47,949 bases of DNA from a virus. The stretch is taken from positions 1 to 47,949 of the IMG/VR virus record IMGVR_UViG_3300022693_001195. One strand, 5' to 3'. Of the stretch, positions 9,582-39,143 are shown in pieces (position 1 is the stretch's first letter; every line of letters begins with the position of its first letter). The notes beneath the pieces were generated by a model. That model saw only the letters and a list, made by a program, of their open reading frames with translations, did not search any database and was not told the origin of the DNA. A program made the position numbers and the translations under genes.

Positions 9582-9609
9582 ATTTCAAGTATAGCACAGT
9601 AGAGCGGAC

Positions 9610-19326: not shown

Positions 19327-19355
19327 GGCTGGCAGGGTCGGGAGACCAATAAGTT

Positions 19356-20552: not shown

Positions 20553-20558
20553 CTCAAA

Positions 20559-20600
20559 CATTCCCCCTCCCCTCCCTAAAAATGGGGGGGCGGGGGAATG
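20559..20600 (+). terminator. Strong hairpin after the capsid gene
   Basis: CATTCCCCC (20559-20567) pairs with GGGGGAATG (20592-20600), extended by more C/G pairs to roughly 16 bp around a TAAAAAT loop. No T-run follows, so it may act as a partial terminator or protect the capsid mRNA 3' end. Confidence 0.6.
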
Positions 20601-20621
20601 GATTAAATGAAAGTTGTGTAA

Positions 20622-21017: not shown

Positions 21018-21020
21018 CCG

Positions 21021-21704
21021 ATGGAAGCAAAAGACGTAGCAAAATTAGCCTATAATCTATGGGATGCTAGAGGTTTGAAGGGCAACAAAGACCAAATGCT
21101 AAAGCTCTTGGAGAGTTCCGTGCAACTCGCTGTAGATAAGGTTGCAGCAATGTCAACTGAGTTTACCTTTGCTATCGATAACGATATTATCCCGTTTACA
21201 ACTGGCGACTCCAATACAGTTGAAGTGTTCGGAAAGAACTCTAATGCCAGAGCTGTATATACTGTCCTATGGGGTTCTGCCGATGGCACCACTGCCGTCA
21301 ATAGGTTGCTGCGTAAATATAGCGAATATGAGAAGGACTTTACTTTCTCCAATTCCATCATATCTGGACAACCTGTTGGTTGGGTCGATAGGGGCACTGG
21401 GGCTAGTGGTTTCCCTAGCGTAGAGATACTTGGGGGAGCTGTTGTTACTGGAGATTCAATAACTGTCCGCTTTTTCAGGAATGATATCGTGATGTCGGAG
21501 TGGCCGCCTCAATTTGAGTATGTCATTAGGGATAAGATTCTTGGCGATGCCGATAGAAATACATTTGGCTTTCTCTCTACTGATTCAGTAAGGAGCATGA
21601 TTGATTTCTACACTACCCCTAGAAAGGGAGGCGAACAATCACTCCCCGATAGCAATATCATTCACGATAATCTAAGAAGGGCGGGGGACTTAAATGTTGG
21701 CTAG
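21021..21704 (+). CDS. Putative head-tail connector protein
   Basis: 227 aa. Starts MEAKDVAKLAYNLWDARG, with a central beta-rich region (SVEILGGAVVTGDSITVRFF) and a hydrophobic FEYVIRDKILGDADRNTFGF stretch. It lies between the capsid and the adaptor-like gene where head-completion or connector proteins are normally found. It lacks a signal peptide, unlike the next two genes. Function inferred from place only. Overlaps the next gene by 11 bases. Confidence 0.65.
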   Translation: MEAKDVAKLAYNLWDARGLKGNKDQMLKLLESSVQLAVDKVAAMSTEFTFAIDNDIIPFTTGDSNTVEVFGKNSNARAVYTVLWGSADGTTAVNRLLRKYSEYEKDFTFSNSIISGQPVGWVDRGTGASGFPSVEILGGAVVTGDSITVRFFRNDIVMSEWPPQFEYVIRDKILGDADRNTFGFLSTDSVRSMIDFYTTPRKGGEQSLPDSNIIHDNLRRAGDLNVG

Positions 21705-22398
21705 AATACTCATAGCGTTTCTGTTGCTAACCGTGACAGCCTCCGCACAGACCAATGGTTTGACTCAGTTGAATCATTTCAAGAACGAGGCTTATCGTTT
21801 GATGCAAATAGATACAACTGGCGCTAGTAATATCGTTCCCCTTGCCGATATGAACCAGTTCGTGCGTAGAGCGGTAGACCAAATGCCTACGTTTGTAAGG
21901 GGCAGAGAATTAGTCAAGCAGGTGATTATAACTGACTCCACGTCTAATGTTTTCTTGGATTCGCTTGTTCAATCCGTAAAGATTGTGATTAAGACCGACC
22001 ATGATTCGTTGTTAATTATCCAGCAAAGACCAGTAGGTATTGTAGGTGTTGATTTTTCAACGGGAACACATGGTGAGGACGATCAAGATATTAGGTACTT
22101 CCATTATTTTGCTGATACTCTTTATTTCTATCCACAAAAGACCAATAAGAAAGATGACACTCTGAGGGTCTATTACTATCAGACACCAATCTTCGCGGAC
22201 CAAACCAACGCAGCCCCTATTACAATGGCTAGACCATTTCAATTAGGAGTGGTCTATTACACTGTTTACTTAGCTGAAATCCGTAGAAATATCGGCAAAG
22301 AAGCAGAAGCATGGAAGAGATATACCGATTGGTTGTCTGCTGTTATTCCTAATGTAATCGGTCGTCCAATAGACTTGTTGAGGGATGAAAAGCCGTAG
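21694..22398 (+). CDS. Tail adaptor (gp11-like) protein with Sec signal peptide
   Basis: 234 aa. The mature part (NEAYRLMQIDTTGASNIVPL, then MNQFVRRAVDQMPTFVRGRE, and later LGVVYYTVYLAEIRRNIGKE) has the helical-bundle plus beta-insert layout of podovirus tail adaptor proteins, which join the portal to the nozzle. The N-terminus is a classic signal peptide: MLARILIAFLLLTVTASA then Q, with a predicted signal peptidase I site after ASA (residue 18). Export of a virion adaptor is unexpected. Start ATG 21694 follows GGGCGGGGG. The shared final base with the next gene shows tight coupling. Confidence 0.65.
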   Translation: MLARILIAFLLLTVTASAQTNGLTQLNHFKNEAYRLMQIDTTGASNIVPLADMNQFVRRAVDQMPTFVRGRELVKQVIITDSTSNVFLDSLVQSVKIVIKTDHDSLLIIQQRPVGIVGVDFSTGTHGEDDQDIRYFHYFADTLYFYPQKTNKKDDTLRVYYYQTPIFADQTNAAPITMARPFQLGVVYYTVYLAEIRRNIGKEAEAWKRYTDWLSAVIPNVIGRPIDLLRDEKP

Positions 22399-25300
22399 TG
22401 AAACATACGTCAAAAGAAATGATAGGGCTATTTGCCTTATTCCTATTAGTTGTCTTCTTGGTACTTTTCGGCCTTTGGTTTGATAATGCCAAGGCGCAGG
22501 GGCGTCCTCCAGATATTACAATCGCGGATTGGTCTGGTGGAATTAACTCCAAGTGGAGTCCATTCCTACTTGCCCCTAATGAGATGCTGGAATGTAATAA
22601 TTACATGCTGAATCTCGAACGAGGTTCGCTTGTGTTGAGGAAAGGCGATATAAAGCGCACTGATTCACTCGACCAGATATTCATCAATTCTACCCCAGGT
22701 GTTGGAGTTCTGAATCAGACTGGAGTAGTTACCAGTGTCGATTCGTTTACTAATCTTTCCGTCGATAAGTGGCGTTCGTACAATCTAACCGTCGATGATA
22801 CCAACGATGTTCAACCTACTGGCTTTTGGGAAGCTGACACCGCTTGGCTGGTTTCCGATAGTCTGACTTTTGCGGTAATAGTGCAATACTCGAAGTTCGA
22901 GGCGACTAAGTATACTATTTCATTCCCTAGTACGTCAGTTGTTTTTGATGTGGATGACCAAGTAACTATGGGCCTTGCTGGAACATCTGGCTCTGTAGAC
23001 ACCGTATCTGTTGGCGCTGGTGGTATCACTGGTATTTATGCGTTTTATGAGAAACCTAGAGACAAGAAGTTGTTGGCCATTACACCTGGATTTGGTGAGA
23101 ATAACGCTAGATGGTCTACTTTGCTTTCATCGCTTACCAATAAGTATCAACCCGAAGTATTTCTTGCTGACTATATCAGTTTTGGGGAAACACCAATTTG
23201 GGCAACTTTTGGTGGGAATGTTTTTCTGGCGCTACCAGAGCAGAGGCCAATTGTCACCAATGTCACTAATACTTCAAGGCTTGTGCCATTAGCTCCTGGA
23301 CAGTCTGAGATTGTACCTATTCGATTTAAGGGTGTTGATTCTGTATATTGGGGCAAGGCAAATGATGGAGCTACTGACACTTCGATGCAGAGAGATACTA
23401 CTGGATTTGGGCTAGTCGGAGGCTCTTCGAGTTGCTGTGATTCCGTCATAGACAATGTTTATGACCAAAACGGAACATTTAGATATACGACTTATAGTCG
23501 TCCATTCTTCTCTGGCGCAGTAGATACATCTCCTGATTCTCTGGTTGACTCGCTTTATGACCGTATGGGATACGTGTCACACGAAGTTACATTATTTGAC
23601 CAGAACGCGCTATTAGTAAACGCCACTGCGCAGGTCAATGATTCAGTCGAAACCTCTCAGGCTGATAGTATTATAATTGTCTTTGCCAGAACAAAAGGTT
23701 ATCAGAATGAAATTAGACCTGACGTTGATAGTTTCTACTGGATAAGTTATTTAATCAGCGACGACCTGTCCATCTTAGATACATTCAAGCTTATTGATAG
23801 CATCCCTGATGATTCGCTTGGAAGTCGTGATTATCCATTTGTCGGCGCTCCTAGGGGGATTCTGCAAGCCGACACTTCTTTTATTGATAGTGTTTATGAT
23901 TTGCAAGACCCGACCTCATTCGACAGGCATTTGACTTATACTGCTCCTGGTATGCCTAAGTTTGTGAGTAGGACGTCTGCTGCAAACCTTGATAATGATT
24001 GGTGGCCACTTGCTATAGATATTGACTCGTCGGGTCAGAAAGAACATCGCGGCTGGGCTATCATGGTGACTGTTGTTGATACGGTACTGCTTGGACTATT
24101 CTCTGACTCATCTGCAAATCTTGTAATTCCGACTGGATTCTCTGCATTACTCGGTGGTGATGACAGTACTTCGAGTATGACGTATAACATCCCTAAACTA
24201 CCTATACGTGAGACAAACAAGGTTCGCGTGGTTTGGAGGGCTGAGTTTAAGTTACAACCTGCTCCTGACAGTTTTATTTTTATAACTGACACAATTCTTA
24301 TAGTAAATCGTGATATAATTAAAGAGTTTGTTATACAAAGGGAGGAACTAGAAGGGCGAGAGTTTGTTCAATCATTCTCTTCTGATGGTAGATTTGAGAA
24401 TCTGACATTTAGAGAAAGCGTTCCTGGTGACTCTACTATAGTCCAGTCGGCCTTCTTCCCTGTTGGCATTATACGTGACCCTGCGCAAACCCAGTTCATA
24501 GATAGTTTATCTTATGAATCATGGCTGGGAGGTGGAATTAGAGATAATTCTATAGAAATTGACAATCGTTGGACCCCCACCGACAATCGCATGGATATTG
24601 TTAAGGGTTTCTACGCGTTCAAGGACAATCTCTTTGCATGGACCGATAGTAGGTTGTTCCGCTCAGAGCTTGGCGACCCTAGATTCAAACCGTTTAACGA
24701 CATCCTATTCGACCCTGGGAATGGCGATGTGATCATACAGGTGTCCAGTATTGGGCCTAATCTGGTTGTGTTTTGGTCTAGTGGCTTGGCTGAATTGTTT
24801 GACCCTGTTGGCACGTTACCGACCAAGGGTTCGCCCGTTGAAGGCATAGGTTGCATAGCAGCCCATAGTTTAGTGAATTTCGGCGGTACGATTTACTTCC
24901 GAGCCAAGGATGGTATCAGGACTATAACGTCTAGTCCTCTAAAGAACTTTGGAGTTGCCAACACTGTCATATCGGCCAAGATAAATGACAAGATTGTAGA
25001 TGGAATTTCAGACTCAATTGCTACTACAATGGTTGTGGCTGTGGATGAGAGAGATGGAACTATCATTTGGTCTTATCCGTCGATAGACACAATGTTTGTG
25101 TACTATCCTTCATTAAGTCAGGGTGGTATCGGCCCTTGGACTACTAGAAGTGGGGCGATGAATCAGGCCACACATTACGATACAACCGCAGTGGCCAACC
25201 TGATTAAATCGTCTTCGTTATTGTATGCCAAGGCTGGCGACCAGCGAATCTTTGAAATGTTCGGCAGTCCTAATTCGTTTGATTCTGGAGTTGGTGGTTC

Positions 25301-25628
25301 TTACGCTGGGAGAGTCTTAACTCGACCACTATTTGCCGATTGGCGAGAATGGAAATTACAAAGACTTGCTATACGCAACACGGCCAGCACTAGAGATGCA
25401 AGTATTCTTTATAGAAACGATAGGTTAGTCTCTTTGCCAACGATACCGCAACTATTATCATTGAATGATTCTACCTATCAAATAATTAGCATTGCGTCAT
25501 TAGAGCCATCTTCATATTGGTCACTTGACTTTAGGGGTGGGGTTGATATAGGAGCTGGAACAGATACAGATACTTTACGGACATTTTATATTTGGGGCTC
25601 ACATGCAGGTGAGGTCGACACAAAGTAA
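22398..25628 (+). CDS. Large tail nozzle (gp12-like) protein with signal peptide
   Basis: 1076 aa from GTG 22398. Residues about 10-34 are hydrophobic (MIGLFALFLLVVFLVLFGLW) and end NAKAQG, a probable signal peptidase site. The following segment (ITIADWSGGINSKWSPFLLA, then PNEMLECNNYMLNLERGSLV) is the recognisable opening of tail tubular protein B/nozzle proteins, where a Ser-Gly-Gly-x-N motif and a MLNLERG repeat occur. The middle is very rich in D, S and T with many VDSI-like repeats, and the C-terminal 250 residues look like a beta-propeller-like platform. It is expected to form the short tail's tube. Confidence 0.7.
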   Translation: MKHTSKEMIGLFALFLLVVFLVLFGLWFDNAKAQGRPPDITIADWSGGINSKWSPFLLAPNEMLECNNYMLNLERGSLVLRKGDIKRTDSLDQIFINSTPGVGVLNQTGVVTSVDSFTNLSVDKWRSYNLTVDDTNDVQPTGFWEADTAWLVSDSLTFAVIVQYSKFEATKYTISFPSTSVVFDVDDQVTMGLAGTSGSVDTVSVGAGGITGIYAFYEKPRDKKLLAITPGFGENNARWSTLLSSLTNKYQPEVFLADYISFGETPIWATFGGNVFLALPEQRPIVTNVTNTSRLVPLAPGQSEIVPIRFKGVDSVYWGKANDGATDTSMQRDTTGFGLVGGSSSCCDSVIDNVYDQNGTFRYTTYSRPFFSGAVDTSPDSLVDSLYDRMGYVSHEVTLFDQNALLVNATAQVNDSVETSQADSIIIVFARTKGYQNEIRPDVDSFYWISYLISDDLSILDTFKLIDSIPDDSLGSRDYPFVGAPRGILQADTSFIDSVYDLQDPTSFDRHLTYTAPGMPKFVSRTSAANLDNDWWPLAIDIDSSGQKEHRGWAIMVTVVDTVLLGLFSDSSANLVIPTGFSALLGGDDSTSSMTYNIPKLPIRETNKVRVVWRAEFKLQPAPDSFIFITDTILIVNRDIIKEFVIQREELEGREFVQSFSSDGRFENLTFRESVPGDSTIVQSAFFPVGIIRDPAQTQFIDSLSYESWLGGGIRDNSIEIDNRWTPTDNRMDIVKGFYAFKDNLFAWTDSRLFRSELGDPRFKPFNDILFDPGNGDVIIQVSSIGPNLVVFWSSGLAELFDPVGTLPTKGSPVEGIGCIAAHSLVNFGGTIYFRAKDGIRTITSSPLKNFGVANTVISAKINDKIVDGISDSIATTMVVAVDERDGTIIWSYPSIDTMFVYYPSLSQGGIGPWTTRSGAMNQATHYDTTAVANLIKSSSLLYAKAGDQRIFEMFGSPNSFDSGVGGSYAGRVLTRPLFADWREWKLQRLAIRNTASTRDASILYRNDRLVSLPTIPQLLSLNDSTYQIISIASLEPSSYWSLDFRGGVDIGAGTDTDTLRTFYIWGSHAGEVDTK

Positions 25629-25637
25629 GGAGTTTAT

Positions 25638-26156
25638 ATGCCACACGGTCATAATACTAACAATCAGTTCAATCAGGAACCAGGATTCCTGAATATACAG
25701 AACTTAGAACAACAGCAGGGAGGCGGAATCAACGCTTCACAGATTGGTGGTCTTGTTGGGTTACTTGGTGGTCCTGCTGGTGGTATCGTAGGCGGCGCAG
25801 CAGGCGCAGGGTTTGACGCATTGGCTAGTTTGTTTAGTGGTGATGGAGGATTTAAGAAGCGCCGTAGAGAGGCTCAGAATGCCTTCAGGGGGTTGCAGGG
25901 TTCTACGATAGATGAGAACTTCCTGACTCGTAGCGCTGGACAATTTCAGAGAGCTAACTTGCCAGGATTACAGAAGTTATTTCAGCGGTCGGCCAGTAGA
26001 GTTGGGCTTGGCTCTGGGATTGGTCAAAGCGCTGCTTTAGAGCAGTTCTCAGAGTTATTAGCCAGATTCAACAGTCAAAATCTATTACAGGAAAGACAAC
26101 GGGTTTCAAGAGACAGAAGGGTCGGAGCGCAGGGCTTGGCTTCATTGGTGGGGTAA
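25638..26156 (+). CDS. Internal virion protein with glycine zipper (gp14-like)
   Basis: 172 aa. A glycine-zipper hydrophobic stretch (IGGLVGLLGGPAGGIVGGAA, about 37-56) can insert in membranes, as known for T7 gp14-like ejection proteins that form a channel. The rest is Gln/Arg-rich helix (RFNSQNLLQERQRVSRDRR). Start follows AAGGAG. It opens a run of three presumed ejection proteins. Confidence 0.65.
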   Translation: MPHGHNTNNQFNQEPGFLNIQNLEQQQGGGINASQIGGLVGLLGGPAGGIVGGAAGAGFDALASLFSGDGGFKKRRREAQNAFRGLQGSTIDENFLTRSAGQFQRANLPGLQKLFQRSASRVGLGSGIGQSAALEQFSELLARFNSQNLLQERQRVSRDRRVGAQGLASLVG

Positions 26157-26159
26157 GAC

Positions 26160-27068
26160 ATGGCACATGACCCAAGAGAACAATCAGGATTTCAACGCTT
26201 CGCCGAAACGCTATTAAGTGGATTTGGTGATGTAGCTAGAGATGCGCCTGCGCCGATACGTCGGGCTAAACAGCAAGAGCGTCTGCGCAAGCGTCAGGAT
26301 TTACAAGATTTGGTGAGTTCTGAGAGACTGAGGTTCGCGCAAGAAAATAGGGCTAATGAACAAGCCGCTTTTGAGCGAGCACAAGTTGAGGGCGTTGCCG
26401 ATAGGGCTTCTACTATAAGAGATTTAATTGGAGGAGACCCACAGAATCTGTTGCCGTCGGGTAATCGTCAGTTCTCAATTAACCCCGATGCGTTTGACCC
26501 AGGACGTTCGTTAGAGTCCTTAACTGAGCAAAGAGATTTTGAGCGTGGGGCGCCGAAGAGGGAATTAGCTAGACAGTCCACACAAGCGTTGATAGGTTCT
26601 AGGCTCAGAGCCAACCAACCTAAAGCTAAGGTTGCCCCTGGTGCTACCGATGGTGTTAGCGCAGGCGCAAAACGTAGAGTCGTATTTGTAAGCGAAGAGT
26701 TTACCAGACAAAAGAATACTCAGCTAGATAACATCCAGTCTGGATTACAGGCTAAGGGCGTGAAGTTTAGTAGTAATGATTTACATAAAGATGGCACGGT
26801 TAAATTCGCAGCCTTAAAGCGTGAAGCATTGAAATTCTTTAATCCCAAAGGCGATAGGCCCGGTATTGGCTTTTTTGAGGAGTCCGTTGATCCATCTTTC
26901 ATGCAAGCGATACGTGATTTTGAGGATTTCCAGAAGACTGGCAGAAAAGCGGTGTCTGACGATTTAGAGACTACATTCCCATCTTTAAGCGGTGGCATAG
27001 ATGCTCAAATAGCAAATATGAAGAAGCGGATAGCAGAAAAGAAGCGTAAACTTGGCCAGTCTAAATGA
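26160..27068 (+). CDS. Internal virion protein (gp15-like)
   Basis: 302 aa. Mostly helical and Arg/Gln-rich (RLRKRQDLQDLVSSERLRFA), with a C-terminal coiled region. Place between a gp14-like and a giant gp16-like protein suggests the second ejection protein, which in T7-like phages lines the DNA channel. No sequence signature proves it. Ends in a 17-bp overlap with the next gene's proposed start. Confidence 0.55.
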   Translation: MAHDPREQSGFQRFAETLLSGFGDVARDAPAPIRRAKQQERLRKRQDLQDLVSSERLRFAQENRANEQAAFERAQVEGVADRASTIRDLIGGDPQNLLPSGNRQFSINPDAFDPGRSLESLTEQRDFERGAPKRELARQSTQALIGSRLRANQPKAKVAPGATDGVSAGAKRRVVFVSEEFTRQKNTQLDNIQSGLQAKGVKFSSNDLHKDGTVKFAALKREALKFFNPKGDRPGIGFFEESVDPSFMQAIRDFEDFQKTGRKAVSDDLETTFPSLSGGIDAQIANMKKRIAEKKRKLGQSK

Positions 27069-30000
27069 TTTAGAAAAGCAATTAGAATTATTGCAATTGC
27101 AGAAAGAATTTAACTCGCTTGGTGGTGATTCTACTCAAGCCGAGGCTCCTACACTTGCGCCTGATGTTTCACGGGAAACACAGGATATCAATACCCAAAG
27201 GCTTCTACGTCAGCAATTCCCTGCGTCCGCTTCATTGGCTGGCGATGCTCCTTTATTGGTACCACAATCTCCATTTGCGCCAGAATCGGCCGTACCTTCA
27301 ACAACTGCGAGACAGGCGCCCATACAAGACTTTACCGACCGAGGACAGCAGATTACCCCCACTGGAAGACAAGACGAGGGGGGCACATTCTTTAATGTCA
27401 GAGAAGATAGTCCAGGATTTGGCGCTGCATTTAGCTCTGCTCTAGGGGCTGCGGCTGAAAGAGCCAGTACCCGAGATATTGGCGGGTTGGCCCGTTCATT
27501 AACATTGCCATTTGGTGTAGCTCAAGAATTTGCCAAACAGGGTAAATCTCCGATTGAGTTCGCTGGGCCTGGAGGTAAATTAGCTGATGAACTAGTTAGC
27601 GCTCTCACGAATCCACTAGGTTCCGCTGCTTTGATAGGAGCCGAAGGCGGTTCCTTGATACCATCGCAAGAGGATATCGGCAAGAAAGTCCCAGGTTCCG
27701 AAGGTCTGGTCGGCGACATAGCTGGGTTGGCTGGGTTCATTATAGGTAAAATCCCTGAGTATTTAGCTACTGGCGGCCTTGTTAGTGGCATTACAAACCC
27801 TGCTCTTAGATTGGCCGTACAAGGCGCTATAGAGGGCGCTGGTGAGGCTGGTGGTGAAATAGGTAAAGTGGCTCGTGGGGAATTAACTGCCGCTGAGGCA
27901 GCCCCTATAATAGCTGCTAGTGTATTAGCTGGAGCTGTGCTGAACCCTGCTCTGAGCAAAGCTGGCCGTTCCAGTGTGAAGAGTATTGTTCGCGGTGAGA
28001 CTCAGAAGACATTTGAGGCTGCTCAGAAGATTGAGAAGATTTCAAGAGATTTCAAGCCAAAGCCGAAGAAGACCGCTGATGTACTTGAGAGTGTTAGGTC
28101 TGAACCTGCTGGCACACGGCCAAGAACGCAGAAACTAGATATAGACCTGACTCCGTTCCCTAAAGATGCTCCGCCAAGTACTGTCCGTAAGGTGGCTGCT
28201 AGTAACGCTGAGAAGGTCACTACCCAGCAATTAGTAGAAGCCAAGGCTGTTGGCAAGGGTCCGACTTCTAAGCCTAAACCTAGTTCGGTCGAGGCCAATC
28301 CTGAAGTATCCCTGCTCAACAAGTCTACTGATACAAAGCTCAGGGAGAGTTTACGGGCTAAGAATGCCGCTCCATTCCAAAAAAGAAGCCACGAAGAGGC
28401 ATTGGAGATAGCCAAGAAAACAGGCGCGGTTGAAAATGCTGAAAAGAATGCTGATGAAATCATCAAGTCGCCCAGGTCGATTACTGATATAGAGCAAGTG
28501 GCACTAAAGGCTAGAAATGCAGAGCTTGAGATTGATATTGACCGTTCTGCGAGGGAGGCCTTAAAACTATCTGAAGCTGGCAATGTTAAGGGTGAAGCGA
28601 TTGAAAGAGCCAGATTAGCAGATTTAGAGCATAGACGAGCAAGGCTTGTTGAAGCTGATGATATAGTAGGTACTTTAGAGGGGAGGGCTTTCGGCGCCCG
28701 TAAGGTAGCATTAGACAGAGAGACTTTGACTGTTGCCAAGACTCTTGCCAAGACTAGAGATATTAAAGGCTCTAAACTCACAGCAGCCGAAGAGAACTTC
28801 CTTACTAGCAGTGTGATACGGGAGCAGAAACTAACCCCTGAGATTCAGGCTCTAATAAAGAAAGAAGTCCAACGAGCCGATATTGCAGAGCGTAGATTAG
28901 CAGAGTTGCAGTTTAGCCGTGAAGTTAAGAGTGGTAGAATAACCAGTAGGGCTAAGGGTTCCTTTGAGAGAATCAGGGCCGAGCAAGGTGATATTCTTAA
29001 ACAACTCGGAGCTTTGGGATTTAGGGCTAATGATATTATTGGGGTGACTTTGGAGGGTTCTTTCCTGATAGGTCGATTAGCGAAGACCTACATACAATTA
29101 GGGGCTATAACTCTTGATGAAGTTATTAGAAAAGTCCTTAATGATATTCCCAATATCGAAGAGAAAGATATCATACGTTCGTTGAATCAGCGTAATCCGA
29201 AATTGCAAAAGAAGGCAAAAAGCGCCGCTCAGCAACGTGAGGCAGTCTTAAAATCTCAAGCTGGACTTATTACCAAGATTGATGATGCTTTGAATGGCAT
29301 TACTGTTACGGCATCAAAAGCAAAGGTTGAAGCTGGAGTCAGAGCATTGCGACGAGCGCTTAGTAGGTTACGTCCTCAGTTGAGATCATCCGAGTTGAGA
29401 GGCAATGAGTTAGAGAGAGCATTACAGGTGGTTGCTGAGCTTGAGACACAGCTCAAGAATGAGTTCCGCAATATCCCCAAAGGCAAACGTATTGTACCCG
29501 CTGAATTAGCTCAAGTTAATAGTCAGATTAAAGAGTTGAAGCAGGTTATGCGACTAAATGACCAAATGGCTATTATTAAAGAACAGTTTCGCTTGAATGA
29601 CTTTGGTCCACCTAAAGATGCTTTACCTAAAGCTCCCACTTCGCCTGAGATACAACGTAAGCAGATTAAATTATTAAGTATGAGAAAAGAGCGTGCGCAA
29701 TTTCAAAGACAAACCGCAAAGACTAAATTTCGCCAGATAGTAAGCGCTTTTGTCAATACACCCCGAACTCTCCTTTCTACTGCGGATGTCTCTAGTGTTT
29801 TAAGACAGGGGTTCTTCTTATCTGCCCGTAGGCCAATAAAGGCATCTAAGAACTTTGTTCGTTCCGTAAAGGCTATGTTCAATGAGAACACAGCTCTTGA
29901 GATAGAAAACGAGATAACATCTGCGCCACATCACTATATTAGACAAAAAGCAAAGCTGTTTATAGCTGAAAGAGGTAGTGACCTGAATAAGGCCGAAGAA

Positions 30001-30885
30001 AACTTCCTGGCTAGATATCTAGGAAAGATTCCAGGTCTCGGTAGTGTGGTTAAGGGTTCTGAACGTCAATTTGTTACTTTTCTGAATCTTATGAGAGTAG
30101 AAGCCTTTGATGGTTTCCTGCAAAGGTTTCCTAACGCAACCCAAAAAGAACTCTCAGCTTGGGCAAGTTTTGTAAATGTTGCTTCTGGCAGGGGTTCTCT
30201 CAGCGGTAGGGTTGTAGGCAAGGAAGTAAATTTTGAAGGGGCCGCTGATTTGCTGTCTAGTGTTTTCTTTGCTCCGAGATTTGCGATTAGTAGGATTCAA
30301 ACTCCACTCAAGATATTCGGCAGGTCCGCAGATGGTACAACTACACGCGTACGCAAAGAGATAATCAAAGACATGGTTGCCGCTGTCAGTGTTGGCAATG
30401 CAGCCTTACAGTTAGCTGAGTTAGCTGGAGCTGACGTAAGTTTTGACCCTAGTAGTTCGGATTTCGGTAAAGCGGTGATTGGCAATACTGGCTTCGACCC
30501 TTGGGCTGGAACACAGCAACCATTCAGGGTTATAACGCAACTACTCGGAAGAGGAGGCGAAAGACTAGGGTTGAAAGAGGCTCAGAAGATTGCCTTTGGT
30601 CATGGCTCAGTAGACCTGCTTACACGGTTTGCAGAGTTTAAGATTTCACCACATGTGGCTCTCTTCTTTGAACTACTTGACGAGAAAGACTTGCTGGGCA
30701 GGCCTATAACGCCCACTCAGGCTATCGCGGGCAAGGTTGTGCCATTGAGTCTACAGGAAATGACCGACGCTATTCTTGATGCCGACTCTGCCCCACTGAC
30801 ACTGGTTGCGCTTGCATCCCAATTGGGTATTAGTGTTAGTACATTCCCAAGGAATAAGAAAACCCCACAGTTGAGGACTAAATAG
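27052..30885 (+). CDS. Giant internal virion protein (gp16-like ejection protein)
   Basis: 1277 aa from TTG 27052. Domains seen: Gln-rich N-terminus; Gly/Ala-rich amphipathic region at about 215-305 (LRLAVQGAIEGAGEAGGEIG and AAPIIAASVLAGAVLNPALS); long charged helices; then a C-terminal domain (TPRTLLSTADVSSVLRQGFF, followed by YIRQKAKLFIAERGSDLNKA and ASFVNVASGRGSLSGRVVGK) that I recall in large phage polyvalent or internal proteins. It likely travels with DNA into the cell. No lytic transglycosylase motif was seen. Spacing and size fit a gp16 equivalent. Confidence 0.65.
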   Translation: MASLNDLEKQLELLQLQKEFNSLGGDSTQAEAPTLAPDVSRETQDINTQRLLRQQFPASASLAGDAPLLVPQSPFAPESAVPSTTARQAPIQDFTDRGQQITPTGRQDEGGTFFNVREDSPGFGAAFSSALGAAAERASTRDIGGLARSLTLPFGVAQEFAKQGKSPIEFAGPGGKLADELVSALTNPLGSAALIGAEGGSLIPSQEDIGKKVPGSEGLVGDIAGLAGFIIGKIPEYLATGGLVSGITNPALRLAVQGAIEGAGEAGGEIGKVARGELTAAEAAPIIAASVLAGAVLNPALSKAGRSSVKSIVRGETQKTFEAAQKIEKISRDFKPKPKKTADVLESVRSEPAGTRPRTQKLDIDLTPFPKDAPPSTVRKVAASNAEKVTTQQLVEAKAVGKGPTSKPKPSSVEANPEVSLLNKSTDTKLRESLRAKNAAPFQKRSHEEALEIAKKTGAVENAEKNADEIIKSPRSITDIEQVALKARNAELEIDIDRSAREALKLSEAGNVKGEAIERARLADLEHRRARLVEADDIVGTLEGRAFGARKVALDRETLTVAKTLAKTRDIKGSKLTAAEENFLTSSVIREQKLTPEIQALIKKEVQRADIAERRLAELQFSREVKSGRITSRAKGSFERIRAEQGDILKQLGALGFRANDIIGVTLEGSFLIGRLAKTYIQLGAITLDEVIRKVLNDIPNIEEKDIIRSLNQRNPKLQKKAKSAAQQREAVLKSQAGLITKIDDALNGITVTASKAKVEAGVRALRRALSRLRPQLRSSELRGNELERALQVVAELETQLKNEFRNIPKGKRIVPAELAQVNSQIKELKQVMRLNDQMAIIKEQFRLNDFGPPKDALPKAPTSPEIQRKQIKLLSMRKERAQFQRQTAKTKFRQIVSAFVNTPRTLLSTADVSSVLRQGFFLSARRPIKASKNFVRSVKAMFNENTALEIENEITSAPHHYIRQKAKLFIAERGSDLNKAEENFLARYLGKIPGLGSVVKGSERQFVTFLNLMRVEAFDGFLQRFPNATQKELSAWASFVNVASGRGSLSGRVVGKEVNFEGAADLLSSVFFAPRFAISRIQTPLKIFGRSADGTTTRVRKEIIKDMVAAVSVGNAALQLAELAGADVSFDPSSSDFGKAVIGNTGFDPWAGTQQPFRVITQLLGRGGERLGLKEAQKIAFGHGSVDLLTRFAEFKISPHVALFFELLDEKDLLGRPITPTQAIAGKVVPLSLQEMTDAILDADSAPLTLVALASQLGISVSTFPRNKKTPQLRTK

Positions 30886-31212
30886 ATGACGAACCACATT
30901 AAAGAACATTGGGGCAAGTGGTTGACTGGTACTGGTGGCTTGCTAGGAGCGGTATTGGCTGCATTTGCCATATTAGGCGTATGGCCCGCTGATATAACAG
31001 CAATCCCTAAAACGAATACAATGGTGGTAGAGCATCAAGACAGATTAGGCAAGCTGGAAAGTTGGAGAGAGGCGATGCACCAACAAGACTTAAATTTGCT
31101 AGGGGTCATAAAGGAAAATACTGATGCTGTAAATAATTTAGCTTTGCAAATACAGCATTTAACAACTATGCAAGGCGTTATCATAAAAGATTTAGGGGAG
31201 CTAGAACGATGA
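30886..31212 (+). CDS. Membrane-anchored coiled-coil protein (spanin- or holin-like)
   Basis: 108 aa. One hydrophobic segment (GTGGLLGAVLAAFAILGVW, about 15-33) then a polar helical region with heptads (ENTDAVNNLALQIQHLTTMQ). An N-terminal anchor plus periplasmic coiled coil is the layout of an inner-membrane spanin, but no partner lipoprotein gene overlaps it. It overlaps the next gene by 4 bases. Confidence 0.6.
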   Translation: MTNHIKEHWGKWLTGTGGLLGAVLAAFAILGVWPADITAIPKTNTMVVEHQDRLGKLESWREAMHQQDLNLLGVIKENTDAVNNLALQIQHLTTMQGVIIKDLGELER

Positions 31213-31520
31213 AATGCTGGATGAGAAGATTAACTGGAACGGTAATAATAGTTACATGGATAGCAATAGCGAGCGCTGGCAATATCAACGCTGGCGGCGC
31301 CCTTTCAATACTTATGTCCAAGGCTGGCATGAGCGACGAAGAAGTTGAGCACGTTCTGTCATTACCAACGAATTACAATATCAGTGACGATATCGAGATG
31401 ATACTCCCTGGCAAGTTCATGGTGTACTCTAAGGACGGCCTCAAAGGCGTTGAATACTATGTGAAAGACACCGTACCAGGCAGAGTAATCTACCATTTGA
31501 AATACGAGGACAAGAAATGA
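31209..31520 (+). CDS. Small exported protein
   Basis: 103 aa with a likely signal peptide (MKCWMRRLTGTVIIVTWIAI followed by ASA then GNINAGG). The mature 80 residues are acidic and include MSDEEVEHVLSLP. Not recognised. Lies in a cassette of exported proteins. Confidence 0.6.
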   Translation: MKCWMRRLTGTVIIVTWIAIASAGNINAGGALSILMSKAGMSDEEVEHVLSLPTNYNISDDIEMILPGKFMVYSKDGLKGVEYYVKDTVPGRVIYHLKYEDKK

Positions 31521-32371
31521 GCCGCCTGCTTCTGGCCATAGGCTTTGCTTTGTGCGCTGCGACCTCGTGGGGCGACCAGATCAACTTTCAGGGCACCCCT
31601 GACCCTAATGGGCATTTATTCTTTACCTTTAATACGACCGTAGCAAGAACATCACCCCAAGGGAATAGCGCGACATTTAGATTTGGTTGGGTTGTGAATA
31701 AGGACACAAACATTGTTATGATTGGGTTGGACCCTGATACTCTGATTGCACTGGGAATAGATAGTAGCCAGTTTGATTCAGCAAAGATTATTATCAGGGA
31801 AATTGTTAATGGCACATGGGTAATGAATATGAGTGGTTCCGACCCTGACAGTGTTTATCTGACTTGGCATTTAGTTGTACCCGATGATAGCGCTACGGTT
31901 GAAGATCAGAGTACATTTACAATCTCGCGCACAGGTAAGAATTGGGATACGGAGGGGCCGTTTTTAGATGCAAGCGGAGATGATATTGTCGAGGCTCCGT
32001 CTGCGGTTTTTAATGCCGCCGACACTCAAATGATATTCTACGCTACAACACTTGCTTTTGGCGCGGAAGGAGCAATGAGGACTCAAACGGGCACCTTAAT
32101 TACTTCCCTGAAAAACGAAATTGGGGGCGACAATCCCTTCCCGTTATATATCCCCGTGCAAGAGTTCAAGGAGCATCTAGCTGCGGGTCAATTTGCGAAG
32201 TGGGCCATCATCCCTACTCGCGTACATGACGCTGACGGGGATAATAAAGCAGGATTCCAAGCCAACAGTGATGATGCAATTGGAGCATTACAACTTGACC
32301 TGTTTGTGTATTTCACACCCCCCCCTGATGCTCCATCGGGCAAGCGCAGAAAGGCTGCGATGAATGACTAG
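31517..32371 (+). CDS. Exported fibre-associated beta-rich protein
   Basis: 284 aa. Signal peptide MSRLLLAIGFALCAATSWG then DQINF. Mature protein is beta-rich with D/S/T-rich turns. Near the 3' end a run of eight C (about 32318-32325) encodes Pro-Pro-Pro before SGKRRKAAMND. Likely a tail-fibre accessory by location; no family. Overlaps both neighbours. Confidence 0.6.
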   Translation: MSRLLLAIGFALCAATSWGDQINFQGTPDPNGHLFFTFNTTVARTSPQGNSATFRFGWVVNKDTNIVMIGLDPDTLIALGIDSSQFDSAKIIIREIVNGTWVMNMSGSDPDSVYLTWHLVVPDDSATVEDQSTFTISRTGKNWDTEGPFLDASGDDIVEAPSAVFNAADTQMIFYATTLAFGAEGAMRTQTGTLITSLKNEIGGDNPFPLYIPVQEFKEHLAAGQFAKWAIIPTRVHDADGDNKAGFQANSDDAIGALQLDLFVYFTPPPDAPSGKRRKAAMND

Positions 32372-32981
32372 ACTGAAATGGTATCATTGGGTCGCGGTAA
32401 TTCCCCTCTCTATATTCTTCGTGGTTATAGGCTGGGGATTGTCGCTGGGCGCTATCATAGGCAATTCAAACATAGAGACACCTACGGTAACGGCATTCCC
32501 TGGCAGAGGACTTGCAACTGCCAGTCTCACTCCTGGTGATAATGCTGGTATTTACACAGCTATCGCAGGTGACAATGTTGACACTCTTGCATGGTACGGT
32601 AATTTTGGCACTGACGCTACTGACTTAACAGTTGAAATGGGTATTTACACTGTCAGAGACGATAGTATCCCTGACGTATTGATTGACTCGGCTTCCGTTA
32701 CAGTAAGTAGCGGCACAGACCAGTGGTGGCCAGTAGTTGTTAATATCCCGCTAACCGCTGGTGTGAAATATATTTGGACATGGGTTTCTAGGAATTCCCA
32801 TTCCTATGAAGGTCGCATATTTAGTTGTCTTGGCTGTGCTCCACAAACCATAATATCTGGAGGGGCTTTAGAGAGTCCTTGGAATGATTTTGGAACTGAC
32901 TTTGGGGTAGCGTTCTCTGGCTATGGATTCGTCTCAAATACTCCAGCGCCTACAGGTGATAGGGTGATGGTGTTAGATTGA
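32364..32981 (+). CDS. Membrane-anchored beta-sandwich protein
   Basis: 205 aa. N-terminal hydrophobic helix (AVIPLSIFFVVIGWGLSLGA, about 11-30) without a clear cleavage site, followed by a beta-rich domain with VEMGIYTVRDDSIPDVLIDS and a WTWVSRNSHSY aromatic patch, resembling carbohydrate-binding or receptor-binding sandwiches found in phage tails. No catalytic residues visible. Presence of a membrane anchor on a fibre-region protein is unusual. Confidence 0.6.
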   Translation: MTRLKWYHWVAVIPLSIFFVVIGWGLSLGAIIGNSNIETPTVTAFPGRGLATASLTPGDNAGIYTAIAGDNVDTLAWYGNFGTDATDLTVEMGIYTVRDDSIPDVLIDSASVTVSSGTDQWWPVVVNIPLTAGVKYIWTWVSRNSHSYEGRIFSCLGCAPQTIISGGALESPWNDFGTDFGVAFSGYGFVSNTPAPTGDRVMVLD

Positions 32982-34612
32982 AACAACTAGCTCTCACATT
33001 TCTAGGCTTCGTGTTGTTGCTCAGCATCGCGCATTCGGCTCCTCCCGATACTGTGCGAGTACGCTTTATTATAGATGATACAACATCTCTATCCGATGAC
33101 ACTATCCTTGGTAATTACATCGAGGACAGTCTTACTAATTCAGCGGTTGAATATATCGTGGATTACAGGGATGAGACTGATAACCCTTTTGAGACCGATT
33201 CATTTAATCTAGTGATTGTTTCTTATGGCAATGGAAACATCACTAGCGCTGAACATATCTGGTTACTCGACAGCGTTGTTAATGTACTGTCATATAACCG
33301 CCACAGCTCTAGTGGTTTGAAACTAGGCAATGGAAATGTTCTAGCGACCAACTTCAGAACAATGGCTCGACTAGATACTAGCTGGGTTAATAAGAACCGA
33401 AACTGTGGTTGGGATTCCGTGATAGTCTTTAGTCAAGTTGCTTTTGTATGGGAGTTGACTCTGGCTGGGTCAGGGTCGGTACAGAAGCTATACTTGCGTG
33501 ACTCATCTACTTTTAATAGCTCAACCTTCCAGAGAGATAATAATGATACGGCGCTCATAGTTTCGATTGACTCTAATCTGACACTGGATGACGGCTCAAC
33601 CTTATCTAAGGGCAGGTATCTCTACGATGGAACTATAGCTAATGGTAACTGCGCTCAATGTGATGAACTTGGCGCAGGGCAGGCTCTACGCTTCCTGAAT
33701 GAAGTGTTGTGGTGTGTAGGTGATACGTTACACAGGTTTAATCGCAAGAAAGTATTTGAGGGATACAACCTTACTCACTATTGGGCTGAATGGGGATTCA
33801 CTGGCCGTCACGAAGCCTATGGGAATAGTCCGACAGGTGGCGTGGCCATGCGTCTCGGCTTTGATGGTAATATACCTGATACTTCTTATTTCAAAGGCTT
33901 TGGCTATTGGTTCCTGCATGGAACTGAGACTGTGTTGGCTGGCTTACAAGTTGACTCTTCGTGGTTGAAGATGCCTGTAGCGCAGTTCTTTCAGAATAGT
34001 GATAACAATTACGGTTACCAATTTGATGTGGACTTATTCTTACTTGAACATAGCGCTAGTCCATTCAAGATATTCGACTTGAATCAAGACCCTATGAATA
34101 CAGCAGCTCAAGCTGATAGCACATTGGTGACTGACAGCCTGTCTATCACACGCTATGCTTTCAAGGGATATGATACGTTGTGGAGCGGTGGCGGTGTGAA
34201 GCAATCTCTGCCATTGGCTGGCACTGATTATAACGCCACTCTGTTTGCTACCCAGTTTTTAGATTCTACGACTTATGGTCACTTTGAGCTTTCAACTACT
34301 ACCGATACTGTGTACAAGGATGAAGTAGTATTTGTCATGCCTAATGTGACTATCGAGGACTGGAAGACCACTAACAATGGCTTCTTCTCTTTGACTGACT
34401 CGCAGGACGTTGATGTTACTACTTGTGATTGTGACATGGAGCTTGTGATGTCTGCTTCTAGTGATGTAAGTGGTACATTCCCTAGTCGTGGCAGGGAGAG
34501 CGCGGATAACGCCAAGACTTTAAGTGAAGATTTTGCTACTAGAATTATAGTGTGGACGCAGGATTCCGTAACAGTAACTGATTCAGGCTCAAGGGTAAAG
34601 GTTAAGAAATGA
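32978..34612 (+). CDS. Large exported fibre-like protein
   Basis: 544 aa from TTG 32978 (overlap TTGA with the previous stop). Signal peptide MKQLALTFLGFVLLLSIAHS then APPDT. The first 100 mature residues form an alpha/beta unit (VRVRFIIDDTTSLSDDTILG, then SFNLVIVSYGNGNITSAEHI), possibly a flavodoxin-like fold; the rest is D/S/T-rich beta. Place and composition suggest a tail spike or fibre part. Function not proven. Confidence 0.65.
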   Translation: MKQLALTFLGFVLLLSIAHSAPPDTVRVRFIIDDTTSLSDDTILGNYIEDSLTNSAVEYIVDYRDETDNPFETDSFNLVIVSYGNGNITSAEHIWLLDSVVNVLSYNRHSSSGLKLGNGNVLATNFRTMARLDTSWVNKNRNCGWDSVIVFSQVAFVWELTLAGSGSVQKLYLRDSSTFNSSTFQRDNNDTALIVSIDSNLTLDDGSTLSKGRYLYDGTIANGNCAQCDELGAGQALRFLNEVLWCVGDTLHRFNRKKVFEGYNLTHYWAEWGFTGRHEAYGNSPTGGVAMRLGFDGNIPDTSYFKGFGYWFLHGTETVLAGLQVDSSWLKMPVAQFFQNSDNNYGYQFDVDLFLLEHSASPFKIFDLNQDPMNTAAQADSTLVTDSLSITRYAFKGYDTLWSGGGVKQSLPLAGTDYNATLFATQFLDSTTYGHFELSTTTDTVYKDEVVFVMPNVTIEDWKTTNNGFFSLTDSQDVDVTTCDCDMELVMSASSDVSGTFPSRGRESADNAKTLSEDFATRIIVWTQDSVTVTDSGSRVKVKK

Positions 34613-37600
34613 TTAAAAAGATATTATTGGCATTAGGATTGTTGGCGTTTGGCGTAGGGGATGTTCAGGCGGCAGCTAACCTTGGTGCGAAAAAGGCTAC
34701 GGAGTTTGTTTCATTCTTTCTTAAGGCCGTTGACTCTGGTGGTATTAAACAGAAGCCTGACTCCGTACATATATTCACATATATTGACGAGGCGACTACT
34801 CCACAGATTACTTTGCGAAATACAGTATTCCCCTTTATTGGCGCCAATCCAGATATTCTGCCGATTGACACTACCAAAAGGCTGGGCGATACAATCTATC
34901 TGTTTTCGGACCAGATTCAAGACATTGACGGAACACCAACGCCTCCGACTTACGTACTCAAAATAAATGTCATATTCTTTACTGCTGGAATCCCTTGGGA
35001 TAATGAGGCGTATGTCCAAGTAATAGCTGATTCGTTGAATGAGTTCTCTAAGTTTACGTCCGCAACTGACTCTGTGGTTGTCAATGTCACTGCTGCCATA
35101 GCTTCCAACTTAACTGATTCCATCGCCTTCAGGACTTGGGATGAGATACTCACTGGTGGCACACATAATCTCAACAATAGCTCCGGACGCGACCTTCGTG
35201 AATTAGCCAAAGCAGGTCTTATACATACAGGACAAAGTGATAATACACCAGCAAACACCGTTTCTACAATATCACTTGAAAGTGGTGGTGGCTCCCCTAC
35301 GGCCTCAACAGTCAATAATTTTTATAATGGACAGCGGATTACGATTACTAGCGGTACTGGCTCCGACCAAGCTCCGAGGATTATAAGTGATTATATTGGT
35401 TCAAACCAATCGGCTGTGGTGGCCCCAGATTGGACAACTATTCCAGATGCAACAAGTGATTATAGTATCACGCCAGCCAATGTCCATGCAGAAACTCAGG
35501 CTGGCACTTATGCTGGTGGGGCGGTCTTCATTAGCCCTAACGGTGTGACTACGGCCAATATCGGAGTCGATGGTACATCACAGAGACCTATTGATGATGG
35601 TTCTTTAGCTAACGCAAGGCTCATAGCTGACGCTTTGAATCTTACTCATTTCACCCTGTCGGCTGGAGCCTCTATAACTCTGGACGCTAACTATGACCAA
35701 TGGAGATTTACGGGCGGCGGTTATTCTGTGGCTCTGGGCGGTCAGTCAATATCTGGGTCAAGATTCTTCAATGGGTTTATCTCTGGAGTCGGTACTGGCG
35801 CTAGTCGCATAGTTTTCACGAGTTGCCTCATGGGTGACATTGAAGCTCAGCCATTTGCTTTAATAAATTGTGGTCTCACGGGTCAAGTGAAGATGTCCGC
35901 GTCTGGAGCTTATCGCATCTTTGGTTCCAACGCTTCTGGTCCAAACGGTGAGGCTAGGATTAGTTTTGGAACGGGAGCGGGTGGCTCCCAAACTATAGTC
36001 CTAGAGGATTGGAACGGCAAGGTTGTTATCGATTCTATGGGCGTAGATGGCACCGACAGCTTACAGTTGGACGGCAGGGGGGTGCTACTCTTTGAAGCCT
36101 CTAACGTGGCAGGTGTTGTTGTTGCGAGAGGAATAGTTGATGTAGTTGATACATTGGGGGCTACACTTACAAGCGTGGATGAAGCTCTAGCAATAACGCT
36201 TCCAAAGGTTGCGAGTCATACTTCGGACTCTGCCTACCAGAAAGATACAGCAAGTGCTTTTGCGTTGGCTGGGAGTGTTGGTGAATTTATTAAAGATTCG
36301 CTTACTGGCGCTAGTTCAATTTTAGCCGCTGGGCAGTTCAGTAAGATCAGTGATTCGGTCTGGTTGAGGCTATTCGCTACTGTGGCTGGCTCTTATATCG
36401 ATTCGCTGATACTGGCTAGTGAGTTAGCGACTAAGGAGGAATTAGCGGGGGAGACCGCTGATTCTACATTAGACAGAGACACGAGCGCCATTTCCGTAGC
36501 TAATTCATTCGGCTTAATGCTCAAGGACACTTCAGCTTATCAGGGGGCCGCTGGTGGTGGTTCAGATACAACAGCTATTAGATTGATGATGATTAACAAT
36601 CTCGATTCGATGCACAGAGGGATAGCGGCCTTTACTGCTGATTCGATGCTTCAGGCTGATACGGCTGGTCATAATAATGTAGCTGGCTCAATGGGTGAAG
36701 CGATACCGCTTGGCAACTTTGCAAGCGCCGCTACTGTAGCTGATACATTCCTCAACAGAGACACGAGTGACATTTCTACGGCTAATTCATTCGGACTGAT
36801 GTTGAAAGATACCTCAGCCTACCAAGGAGCCGCCAGTGGGCTTACAACGGGTGCTATCGCTGAAGCTGTGCTAGACACAATGGAGGCGTCTGAAACTAGA
36901 GACATAAAATTCAATTCCCTAGTAATCTCTAATTCCACTGGCGATGCGGTCCAGTTCACTTCTACTGGTGGTGGCGGCGATGGATTGCAGGTAACTGGAC
37001 AAGGCGCTGGCGCTGGTCTTAACGCTGTTGGTGGTTCGCTAGGCTCAGGCTTCAAGGGCGCTGGAAGCACTGGGGGCGATGGTATGGAGCTGGTAGGTGG
37101 GCCTACTGGCGATGGTTTGAATGCTACTGGTGGAGCTACTAGCGGCAAGGGTATTAACGCTATTGGTGGTGGTAGTGGCGCTGGTTTGAATATCACTGGC
37201 GGCACTGGCTCGGTACACTCTATGTTGATTACTACTCAGAATGCCAATGGTAACGCCTTGACTCTAATACCTGCTGGTACAGGTAAGGCGATTGCAGCTG
37301 ATATAGATTCAGCGGCTTTTGCTGATGACTTTTGGGAGGCCGCACGTAATCTCCCCGATTCAATTCTAGGGTTGGTGGTAGATTCTGCCCTGCTATCAAA
37401 GATTGTAGGTTCGATGACTTGGGGCATTCCTTTTGTTACCAGTAATGACTCCTCACTGCTCAACCAACGCAAGACTAATCTGGCTGCTATGGGTTCGTCG
37501 GAGCAAAGCGCTATTGATTTACAGGACTTTGCGGACGATGGATATGACCCTGTTGGTGATACCATTAACTTGAACATCGCTAGTGGTGGCGGTGGTGGTT

Positions 37601-38292
37601 CTGATACTGCCGCCATTAGGATTATGATGGAGGCTGAGTTTGGAGTTGGTAGCTATGTCGGTATCAGCGGCTCGGCTGGTAGCGGCTCAAATGCTGTCGA
37701 GATTGGGGCATTGGACACTTCGGGAGTAGATTCATTGGTGTCGGGAGTGGCAATTACTGTTAAGACCTTAGCGGGCATTACCATAGGTGTCCAAACGACT
37801 CTCTCCAATGGCTTTACCCCCCCCTGGAACCTTAATGTTGACACGTTCATAGTCAGGGCTGGCGGCTTACAATCCGACCATTTCTGGTCTGAATCCTTTG
37901 ATACGATTGTTGTAGTTACTGACCCTGACACGTTCTTTACGCCAGGCTTCGATATAGAGATTATTGGCTCAGGTTCGCCTAGCCTGTGTGTTGTTTACGG
38001 TTTTGTCTTTGACATTCATGGCGACCCTGTTAAGGGCGTGAGCGTTAGCGCATTACTGAGAGGTCGTAATCTGATTGATACGGTTGGATTGAATATTATT
38101 TTTGCAACAACGGTTGACACGGTGACCAATGACACTGGATATTTCCAGATGGAGCTTATCAGGACTTCGACGTTTAACACTGGCGGCAGGTACTATATCA
38201 AGGCCGTTAAGGATGGGAATGAATTCTTGAAGATTCCAGCATATATAGTTCCTGATTCAGTTTCGCATAGAATTAGGTCAGATAGGAGATAA
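34609..38292 (+). CDS. Giant exported tail fibre/adhesin protein
   Basis: 1227 aa. Signal peptide MIKKILLALGLLAFGVGDVQ followed by A then AANLG. After a beta-rich N-terminal third, two similar modules occur (NSFGLMLKDTSAYQGA at about 627 and 724). A Gly-rich stretch with an 11-12 residue period (residues about 786-866) looks like a beta-solenoid or triple-strand fibre. The C-terminal 110 residues (VVYGFVFDIHGDPVKGVSVS to YIKAVKDGNEF) resemble a carboxypeptidase-regulatory/Ig-like domain. Probably the host-binding fibre. It has an 8-C run at about 37816-37823. Confidence 0.7.
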   Translation: MIKKILLALGLLAFGVGDVQAAANLGAKKATEFVSFFLKAVDSGGIKQKPDSVHIFTYIDEATTPQITLRNTVFPFIGANPDILPIDTTKRLGDTIYLFSDQIQDIDGTPTPPTYVLKINVIFFTAGIPWDNEAYVQVIADSLNEFSKFTSATDSVVVNVTAAIASNLTDSIAFRTWDEILTGGTHNLNNSSGRDLRELAKAGLIHTGQSDNTPANTVSTISLESGGGSPTASTVNNFYNGQRITITSGTGSDQAPRIISDYIGSNQSAVVAPDWTTIPDATSDYSITPANVHAETQAGTYAGGAVFISPNGVTTANIGVDGTSQRPIDDGSLANARLIADALNLTHFTLSAGASITLDANYDQWRFTGGGYSVALGGQSISGSRFFNGFISGVGTGASRIVFTSCLMGDIEAQPFALINCGLTGQVKMSASGAYRIFGSNASGPNGEARISFGTGAGGSQTIVLEDWNGKVVIDSMGVDGTDSLQLDGRGVLLFEASNVAGVVVARGIVDVVDTLGATLTSVDEALAITLPKVASHTSDSAYQKDTASAFALAGSVGEFIKDSLTGASSILAAGQFSKISDSVWLRLFATVAGSYIDSLILASELATKEELAGETADSTLDRDTSAISVANSFGLMLKDTSAYQGAAGGGSDTTAIRLMMINNLDSMHRGIAAFTADSMLQADTAGHNNVAGSMGEAIPLGNFASAATVADTFLNRDTSDISTANSFGLMLKDTSAYQGAASGLTTGAIAEAVLDTMEASETRDIKFNSLVISNSTGDAVQFTSTGGGGDGLQVTGQGAGAGLNAVGGSLGSGFKGAGSTGGDGMELVGGPTGDGLNATGGATSGKGINAIGGGSGAGLNITGGTGSVHSMLITTQNANGNALTLIPAGTGKAIAADIDSAAFADDFWEAARNLPDSILGLVVDSALLSKIVGSMTWGIPFVTSNDSSLLNQRKTNLAAMGSSEQSAIDLQDFADDGYDPVGDTINLNIASGGGGGSDTAAIRIMMEAEFGVGSYVGISGSAGSGSNAVEIGALDTSGVDSLVSGVAITVKTLAGITIGVQTTLSNGFTPPWNLNVDTFIVRAGGLQSDHFWSESFDTIVVVTDPDTFFTPGFDIEIIGSGSPSLCVVYGFVFDIHGDPVKGVSVSALLRGRNLIDTVGLNIIFATTVDTVTNDTGYFQMELIRTSTFNTGGRYYIKAVKDGNEFLKIPAYIVPDSVSHRIRSDRR
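36450..36830 (+). repeat. Internal duplicated module in the giant fibre gene
   Basis: Two blocks, near 36463-36551 and 36737-36834, encode almost the same peptide (DRDTSAISVANSFGLMLKDT versus NRDTSDISTANSFGLMLKDT, then SAYQGA). Third-position differences show an older duplication. A more diverged copy (SDSAYQKDTASAFALAGSVG) precedes them. Confidence 0.7.
36966..37210 (+). repeat. Glycine-rich fibre repeat
   Basis: About seven copies of a unit of 11-12 residues with the form G-x-G-L-x-A-x-G-G, for example GAGLNAVGG, GDGLNATGG and GAGLNITGG. The DNA is GGT/GGC-rich. Such stretches are typical of fibre shafts. Confidence 0.75.
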
Positions 38293-38793
38293 ATGTATCG
38301 TTTAGGCAAAAGGTCGAGAGAAAAACTCTCTGAATGCCACCCGATATTTAAGGTCATACTTGAGGACTTGATTCAGTACATAGACTTCTCGATAATAGAG
38401 GGCCACAGGGGTCGTGAGGCCCAAGAGCTTGCGTACAGTAAGGGATTGAGTCAACTGCACTTCGGGTTCAGTAAGCACAACTCACAGCCCTCGGACGCTA
38501 TCCATGTGGTTCCGTATCCGATTGATTGGGGTGAACTTACCCTCTCGGAACTTTATGAGAGTGTTAAGAGTGGGGATGTTTCGCTAGACGAGTTCGTGGA
38601 GAAGTTGCACAAGTGGAAGGTTGCTTATGGTAGGTTTTCCTTTTTGGCGGGCCAGTTTATTGCGGTAGGTCTTAAGCATGGCGCTATAATACGTTGGGGC
38701 GGAGATTGGGATAGCGATGGAGAATTAAGTGATAATAGGTGGAATGATTTATGCCACTTTGAGTTACTGGAAATAAAGAAGGAGGATTCATAA
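38293..38793 (+). CDS. Endolysin, M15 (VanY/L-Ala-D-Glu)-type peptidase
   Basis: 166 aa. Cell-wall peptide hydrolase that cleaves peptidoglycan cross-bridge stems at lysis. The zinc site shows SKHNSQPSDAIHVVPYPIDW (about 60-79) and a late His in NDLCHFELL (H155). In the phage M15 relatives I recall, the position of H71 (AIHVVPYP) is usually Asp, and H62 plus H155 are the other ligands. R-x-W-G-G-D-W at 134-139 is typical. Position just before the holin supports lysis. Whether His can replace Asp is inference. Confidence 0.85.
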   Translation: MYRLGKRSREKLSECHPIFKVILEDLIQYIDFSIIEGHRGREAQELAYSKGLSQLHFGFSKHNSQPSDAIHVVPYPIDWGELTLSELYESVKSGDVSLDEFVEKLHKWKVAYGRFSFLAGQFIAVGLKHGAIIRWGGDWDSDGELSDNRWNDLCHFELLEIKKEDS

Positions 38794-39107: not shown

Positions 39108-39143
39108 AAGAATGGTCACGATAACTAACTAAAGGAGATTCAC

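Follow-up and report, generated by a model that had tools for sequence, protein, structure and literature searches.

The window, as we call the whole stretch of DNA analysed, is a single genome of 47,949 bp from an IMG/VR virus record. Its predicted head, tail, ejection and lysis genes, named by position, are collected in Table 1. The order TerL-portal-scaffold-major capsid protein (MCP)-(131-140 aa)-adaptor-nozzle-(164-172)-(302-409)-(1277-1836) is common to the window and about 15 relatives, and because the genes stand in the order seen in these relatives, a chimaera with host DNA is an unlikely origin for the region. The MCP (19356) matches phrog_1328 (E 9.5e-19) and TerL has a Bruynoghevirus-type match at about 25%, whilst the portal (16218) and scaffold (18472) were assigned by position and size. 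The putative ejection genes follow the order of the relatives' 164-409-1836 series, and 27052 shows C-terminal homology to other phages at 22-33%. The endolysin (38293) was assigned from phrog_465 (E 8.5e-20) and the holin-like 38793 from its transmembrane pattern only. The TerL frame (14605-16218, +) is open upstream of its listed GTG start at 14803; this upstream part includes an AGNRSGKT, Walker A-like and in register with the relatives, has no ATG, GTG or TTG start, and offers an ATT at 14605 behind AGGCGG as a candidate start.

Table 1. Predicted features of the window discussed in the text, with the basis of each call.
Feature	Position	Strand	Basis
Head module, no signals: TerL, portal 16218, 18066, scaffold 18472, major capsid 19356, 20622, 21021	14605..21704	+	
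Tail adaptor, SU10_adaptor type	21694..22398	+	PF24175; HMM rank; signal score 12.7
Tail nozzle (hub), GTG start	22398..25628	+	phmmer to L113 nozzle; alignment; no internal start
Three putative internal/ejection proteins, no signals (172, 302, 1277 aa)	25638..30885	+	Gene order
Anchor-like N-terminal segment	30886		Rule-based scorer
103-aa protein with predicted signal peptide	31209..31520	+	Cut near IASA^GN
284-aa predicted exported protein	31517..32371	+	Cut near SWG^DQ; virion status by position
205-aa protein, hydrophobic N-terminal segment	32364..32981	+	Anchor-like by scorer
544-aa predicted exported protein, D/S/T-rich	32978..34612	+	Cut in SIAHSA region; virion status by position
Giant fibre-like protein, 1227 aa	34609..38292	+	Cut near VQA^AAN
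Endolysin 38293 and holin-like 38793	38293..39107	+	phrog_465; transmembrane pattern
Small outer-membrane-barrel-like protein with predicted signal peptide	39144..39695	+	Sequence character; scorer

The predicted adaptor (21694) matches the Pfam SU10_adaptor family (PF24175) with an E-value of 1.9e-5 and 25.7 bits, just below the curated 27-bit cut-off, lies between the capsid and nozzle genes in the conserved order, and ranks first of all window ORFs, weakly (E 0.0074), against an HMM of 16 other adaptors. A profile of the adaptor and 15 relatives matches PDB 8jov, a 12-copy virion protein (E 8.8e-6), although the relatives dominate this profile and the match is mainly a test of the family; the same profile gave Tail tubular protein A as a weak match (E 0.11). 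Taken singly, the window adaptor gave only weak hhalign results against the relatives, and its assignment therefore depends mainly on Pfam, HMM rank and gene order. The predicted signal is MLARILIAFLLLTVTASA^QTN (18 residues, predicted cut TASA^QT, score 12.7). The Pfam alignment places adaptor residue 50 onward against profile position 19, and the first conserved helix starts past the predicted cut (ASA-QT), the mature part corresponding approximately to the canonical first helix; in the MAFFT adaptor alignment the first residues are stacked wrongly. Adaptors of the relatives start MPAEEFTHTGADVADRVRAQFGD, and no signal was found in about 30 other PF24175 adaptors. In one relative (L120, genome G024, 9031-9619, +) the adaptor gene is split into two adjacent ORFs that both match adaptors.

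Just ahead of the adaptor, and following the post-capsid gene, the window carries an extra 227-aa signal-free gene (21021-21704, +) that is absent from the relatives. Its single-sequence model suggests two N-terminal helices followed by strands at low confidence, and no homology was detectable by hhalign or HMM; the idea that it is a second, head-sealing adaptor found no support in either search and is speculation. The AlphaFold models of both proteins are of low confidence (pLDDT 38 for the adaptor and 34 for 21021).

The predicted nozzle (22398) has a phmmer match of 4.5e-7 to the gene right after the adaptor in two relatives (L113 and L114), and it directly follows the adaptor and carries the F/W-SGG-L/I-N start motif, here DWSGGIN at about residue 45 (residue 44 onward), past the signal. 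The motif is preceded by 43 residues, of which about the first 33 form the signal MKHTSKEMIGLFALFLLVVFLVLFGLWFDNAKA^QGR, ending AKA-QG (predicted cut NAKA^QG, score 15.6). In the relatives the same motif lies near residue 10-20 or at the start (e.g., MATEILRLGPFSGGLN, MPKQYLTIKDWSGGIN), and none of 24 nozzle-type starts carries a signal. No usable start codon is present in the window nozzle between the signal and the domain, so the signal is not an annotation slip and a signal-free nozzle could not be made by ordinary initiation; an internal start yielding a cytoplasmic nozzle was rejected on the same ground. The hydrophobic core, at about 21 residues, is long for a cleavable signal and could be an uncleaved anchor. 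The earlier note had allowed that the adaptor and nozzle might be mistaken product calls, which is disfavoured for the adaptor by the Pfam and PDB profile matches and gene order, and for the nozzle by the phmmer match and an equally concordant gene order; judged on sequence, both product calls stand.

All six proteins for which the earlier note proposed Sec-type N-termini or an anchor (21694, 22398, 31517, 32364, 32978 and 34609) were found at the coordinates it gave, and the five said to carry signals score from 10.4 to 15.6. For 31517 the signal is MSRLLLAIGFALCAATSWG/DQ (score 10.4; the scorer cuts after CAA and SWG is our choice), for 32978 it is MKQLALTFLGFVLLLSIAHSA/PP (score 11.4; the scorer cuts after SIA) and for the fibre-like 34609 it is MIKKILLALGLLAFGVGDVQA/AAN (score 12.1). 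The sixth, 32364, also scores, but with a long core and a poor polar c-region, and is probably an uncleaved anchor, as proposed. Signals on 31209 and 39144 had been missed, as had 40962 on the minus strand, which also scores. The fibre-like protein contains GDGLNATGG-type repeats and a weak C-terminal CarboxypepD_reg match, and profile searches returned no family matches for 31517 and 32978; 31517, 32364, 32978 and 34609 are putative virion proteins by their place in the gene order and the character of their sequences only. The product of 39144, just past the lysis genes, is likely a surface or exclusion protein rather than a virion component, possibly a Lom-like or superinfection-exclusion protein. 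The exported candidates have an E/(D+E) of 0.22-0.28 vs 0.33-0.72 in the other proteins (Mann-Whitney 0.0009), with 0.33-0.52 for nozzles and 0.26-0.48 for adaptors in the relatives checked. This composition may be the mark of a lineage whose tail proteins have long resided outside the cytoplasm, although beta-rich (fibre) folds may partly be behind the bias.

Signals were called with a rule-based scorer of Sec signals (positive n-region, uncharged hydrophobic core, small residues at -3/-1), which on E. coli K-12 detected 12 of 17 exported proteins and miscalled 1 of 38 cytosolic ones. Signal-like N-termini are in excess over chance in the window. Because the threshold of 9.5 was set post hoc, with the window scores already seen, the following Fisher and binomial values are indicative: 10 of the 57 window genes score above 9.5, against 4/376 in 20 relative loci (mostly small membrane proteins; Fisher 5e-7) and 4/302 in seven named phages (T7, SU10, crAss001, phi38:1, RM378, HTVC103P and VS-ABTNL-3; Fisher 3e-6), and in the block 21694-39695 the proportion rises to 9 of 14 genes (binomial about 1e-14 at the control rate). 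None of the four scoring genes of the named phages is an adaptor or nozzle, and of internal pseudo-N-termini taken from the window's own proteins, 1.7% obtain any score at all. The scorer found no signal in TerL, the portal, the scaffold, the MCP, 18066, 20622, 21021 or the three putative ejection proteins. The predicted signals thereby appear to track the division between the inside and the outside of the virion, occurring in the adaptor, the nozzle and distal genes only. They show the positive n-region, hydrophobic h-region (Kyte-Doolittle means of 2.8-3.3) and A-x-A type cut site of Sec/SPase I substrates, with predicted cut sites in the adaptor and nozzle, and not the weakly hydrophobic, Gly/Ala-rich uncleaved N-terminal segment of the signal-anchor-release (SAR) type. 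At the level of sequence three things are firm: the anatomy of the signals, their addition in front of canonical N-termini that are themselves intact, and the division between head and tail.

By adaptor family, nozzle motif and conserved gene order, the window encodes a podovirus tail of the SU10/LUZ24 type, which it shares with LUZ24-like/SU10-type modules along with a homologous TerL (25%). It lacks the signal-free cytoplasmic adaptor and nozzle usual for that type, which is not a formally defining feature: the adaptors and nozzles of those phages start with the folded domain or close to it, whereas those of the window carry signals, and the window nozzle is about twice as long and the gene 21021 is additional. 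The T7 tail tube proteins gp11 and gp12 correspond to the window adaptor and nozzle in position and role, but the T7 genes carry no signal according to the scorer. Relatives were sought via the adaptor, MCP, portal, nozzle, ejection protein and TerL, with tblastn in phages and plasmids, and by DNA-pattern searches (TerL, nozzle start, ejection motif), in which the nozzle-motif matches in genome contigs were attributable to chance. A second phage with the trait was not found among the relatives, phages and plasmids searched, which yielded distant kin at 20-33% identity, and PF24175 detected one adaptor, without a signal, across 395 genomes from the phylum of a Bacteroidetes MAG. No close relative came to light, and with no second carrier the trait and its predicted cut sites rest on one genome.

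Our data point, tentatively and with a little less than an even chance in our estimate, to a short-tailed podovirus-type phage in which Sec/SPase I signals have been added to an intact adaptor, nozzle and distal tail/fibre-like proteins, so that its tails are exported. Export of the tail proteins is likely. Signals on the adaptor, nozzle and fibre-like proteins, with none on the head or putative ejection proteins, suggest that tails form beyond the cytoplasm and meet heads only on cell breakage. Heads (portal, scaffold, capsid and terminase) and putative ejection proteins would be made and filled in the cytoplasm; the adaptor, nozzle and fibre-like precursors would be translocated by Sec, have their signals removed and then fold or form oligomers on the periplasmic side of the membrane; and DNA-filled heads, perhaps plugged by 21021, would acquire tails once the inner membrane is opened by the holin, or else in the lysate. 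In its full form, with cytoplasmic heads, the whole tail (adaptor, nozzle and fibres) Sec-exported and matured in the periplasm, and joining at lysis only, we hold this two-compartment assembly to be plausible, though less likely than not. Heads and tails of other phages are classically able to join in lysates. In podoviruses it is normally the adaptor that closes the packaged head, while still in the cytoplasm, and filled heads would therefore need another plug here, for which 21021 is only a guess. Assembly of a tail part at or across the envelope was one of three options in the earlier note and is the best supported of them, to which comes the finding that neither head nor putative ejection proteins bear signals; export, cleavage, the place of assembly and joining after lysis are what we infer.

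Hydrophobic N-termini might instead, as the earlier note also allowed, be retained in the virion and insert during DNA delivery, lining a channel as the tail opens. The long, strongly hydrophobic core of the nozzle and the apparently uncleaved 32364 would suit such a role, as would the need of podoviruses for a channel through the envelope, but the A-x-A-type cut sites of the adaptor and nozzle lie at the normal distance, the head-tail joint is a poor site for a segment of this kind, and exposed hydrophobic segments would be unfavourable on a 12-copy ring, so we regard retention as unlikely. It is less probable again that the adaptor and nozzle are the only virion parts, with their signals serving otherwise, and that 31517, 32364, 32978 and 34609 are exported proteins of the infected cell, serving at its surface or in exclusion. 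Searches returned no virion homologue for these four and the barrel-like 39144 indicates that surface proteins are encoded nearby, yet the four occupy the usual fibre position, from the ejection gene to the endolysin in one tightly packed operon, and the adaptor and nozzle signals would be left unexplained.

Endolysins use Sec export (fOg44 Lys44) and SAR domains to time lysis (PMC6116005), and signals in the window could similarly hold tail precursors at the inner membrane until collapse of the potential by the holin frees them, without full export. The holin-like and endolysin genes do come directly after the tail genes, but the signals of the adaptor, 31517 and 32978 look cleavable and not of the weakly hydrophobic SAR type, and we judge this distinctly improbable. 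The likeness between the two systems lies in phage proteins that use the host Sec and whose activity is tied to membrane collapse (PMC6116005); they differ in that Lys44 and SAR endolysins are lysis enzymes and no part of a virion. That the hydrophobic N-termini are unrelated to export or follow from wrong start codons, given that control genes also score at about 1%, is highly improbable in view of the proportion of scoring genes in the block, the nozzle's want of a usable alternative start and the ribosome-binding-site-like sequences upstream of most annotated starts.

Returning to exported tails, the earlier note knew of no described phage with an exported adaptor and nozzle, and our search of a partial literature library likewise gave no precedent (PMC13059738 was unrelated). 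Such export, if real, would mean that a membrane separates tail from head assembly and that lysis sets the timing. Head-tail joining in tailed phages is regarded as cytoplasmic. The order of podovirus maturation would have to be revised, disulfide-bonded or periplasm-folded tails would become possible, and a new way to seal packaged heads without the adaptor would be implied; under two-compartment assembly, the last step in making the virion would take place outside the cytoplasm. Virion proteins with cleaved Sec signals exist in the filamentous phages (coat proteins pIII and pVIII), but these leave the cell by extrusion rather than lysis and lack a head and tail, whereas the window is a tailed, lytic-type genome.

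Elsewhere in the window, an opposite-strand cluster at 40448-41942 (-) encodes membrane or exported-type proteins (40448, 40762 and 40962), with DTDTV-type stretches in 40962 (-). A small protein at 12844-13104 (-) has a lipobox-like N-terminus (TATSC) and may be a lipoprotein or part of a spanin. The C5 cytosine methylase gene at 45491-46537 (-) is overlapped by a second long frame on the same strand (45556-46530).
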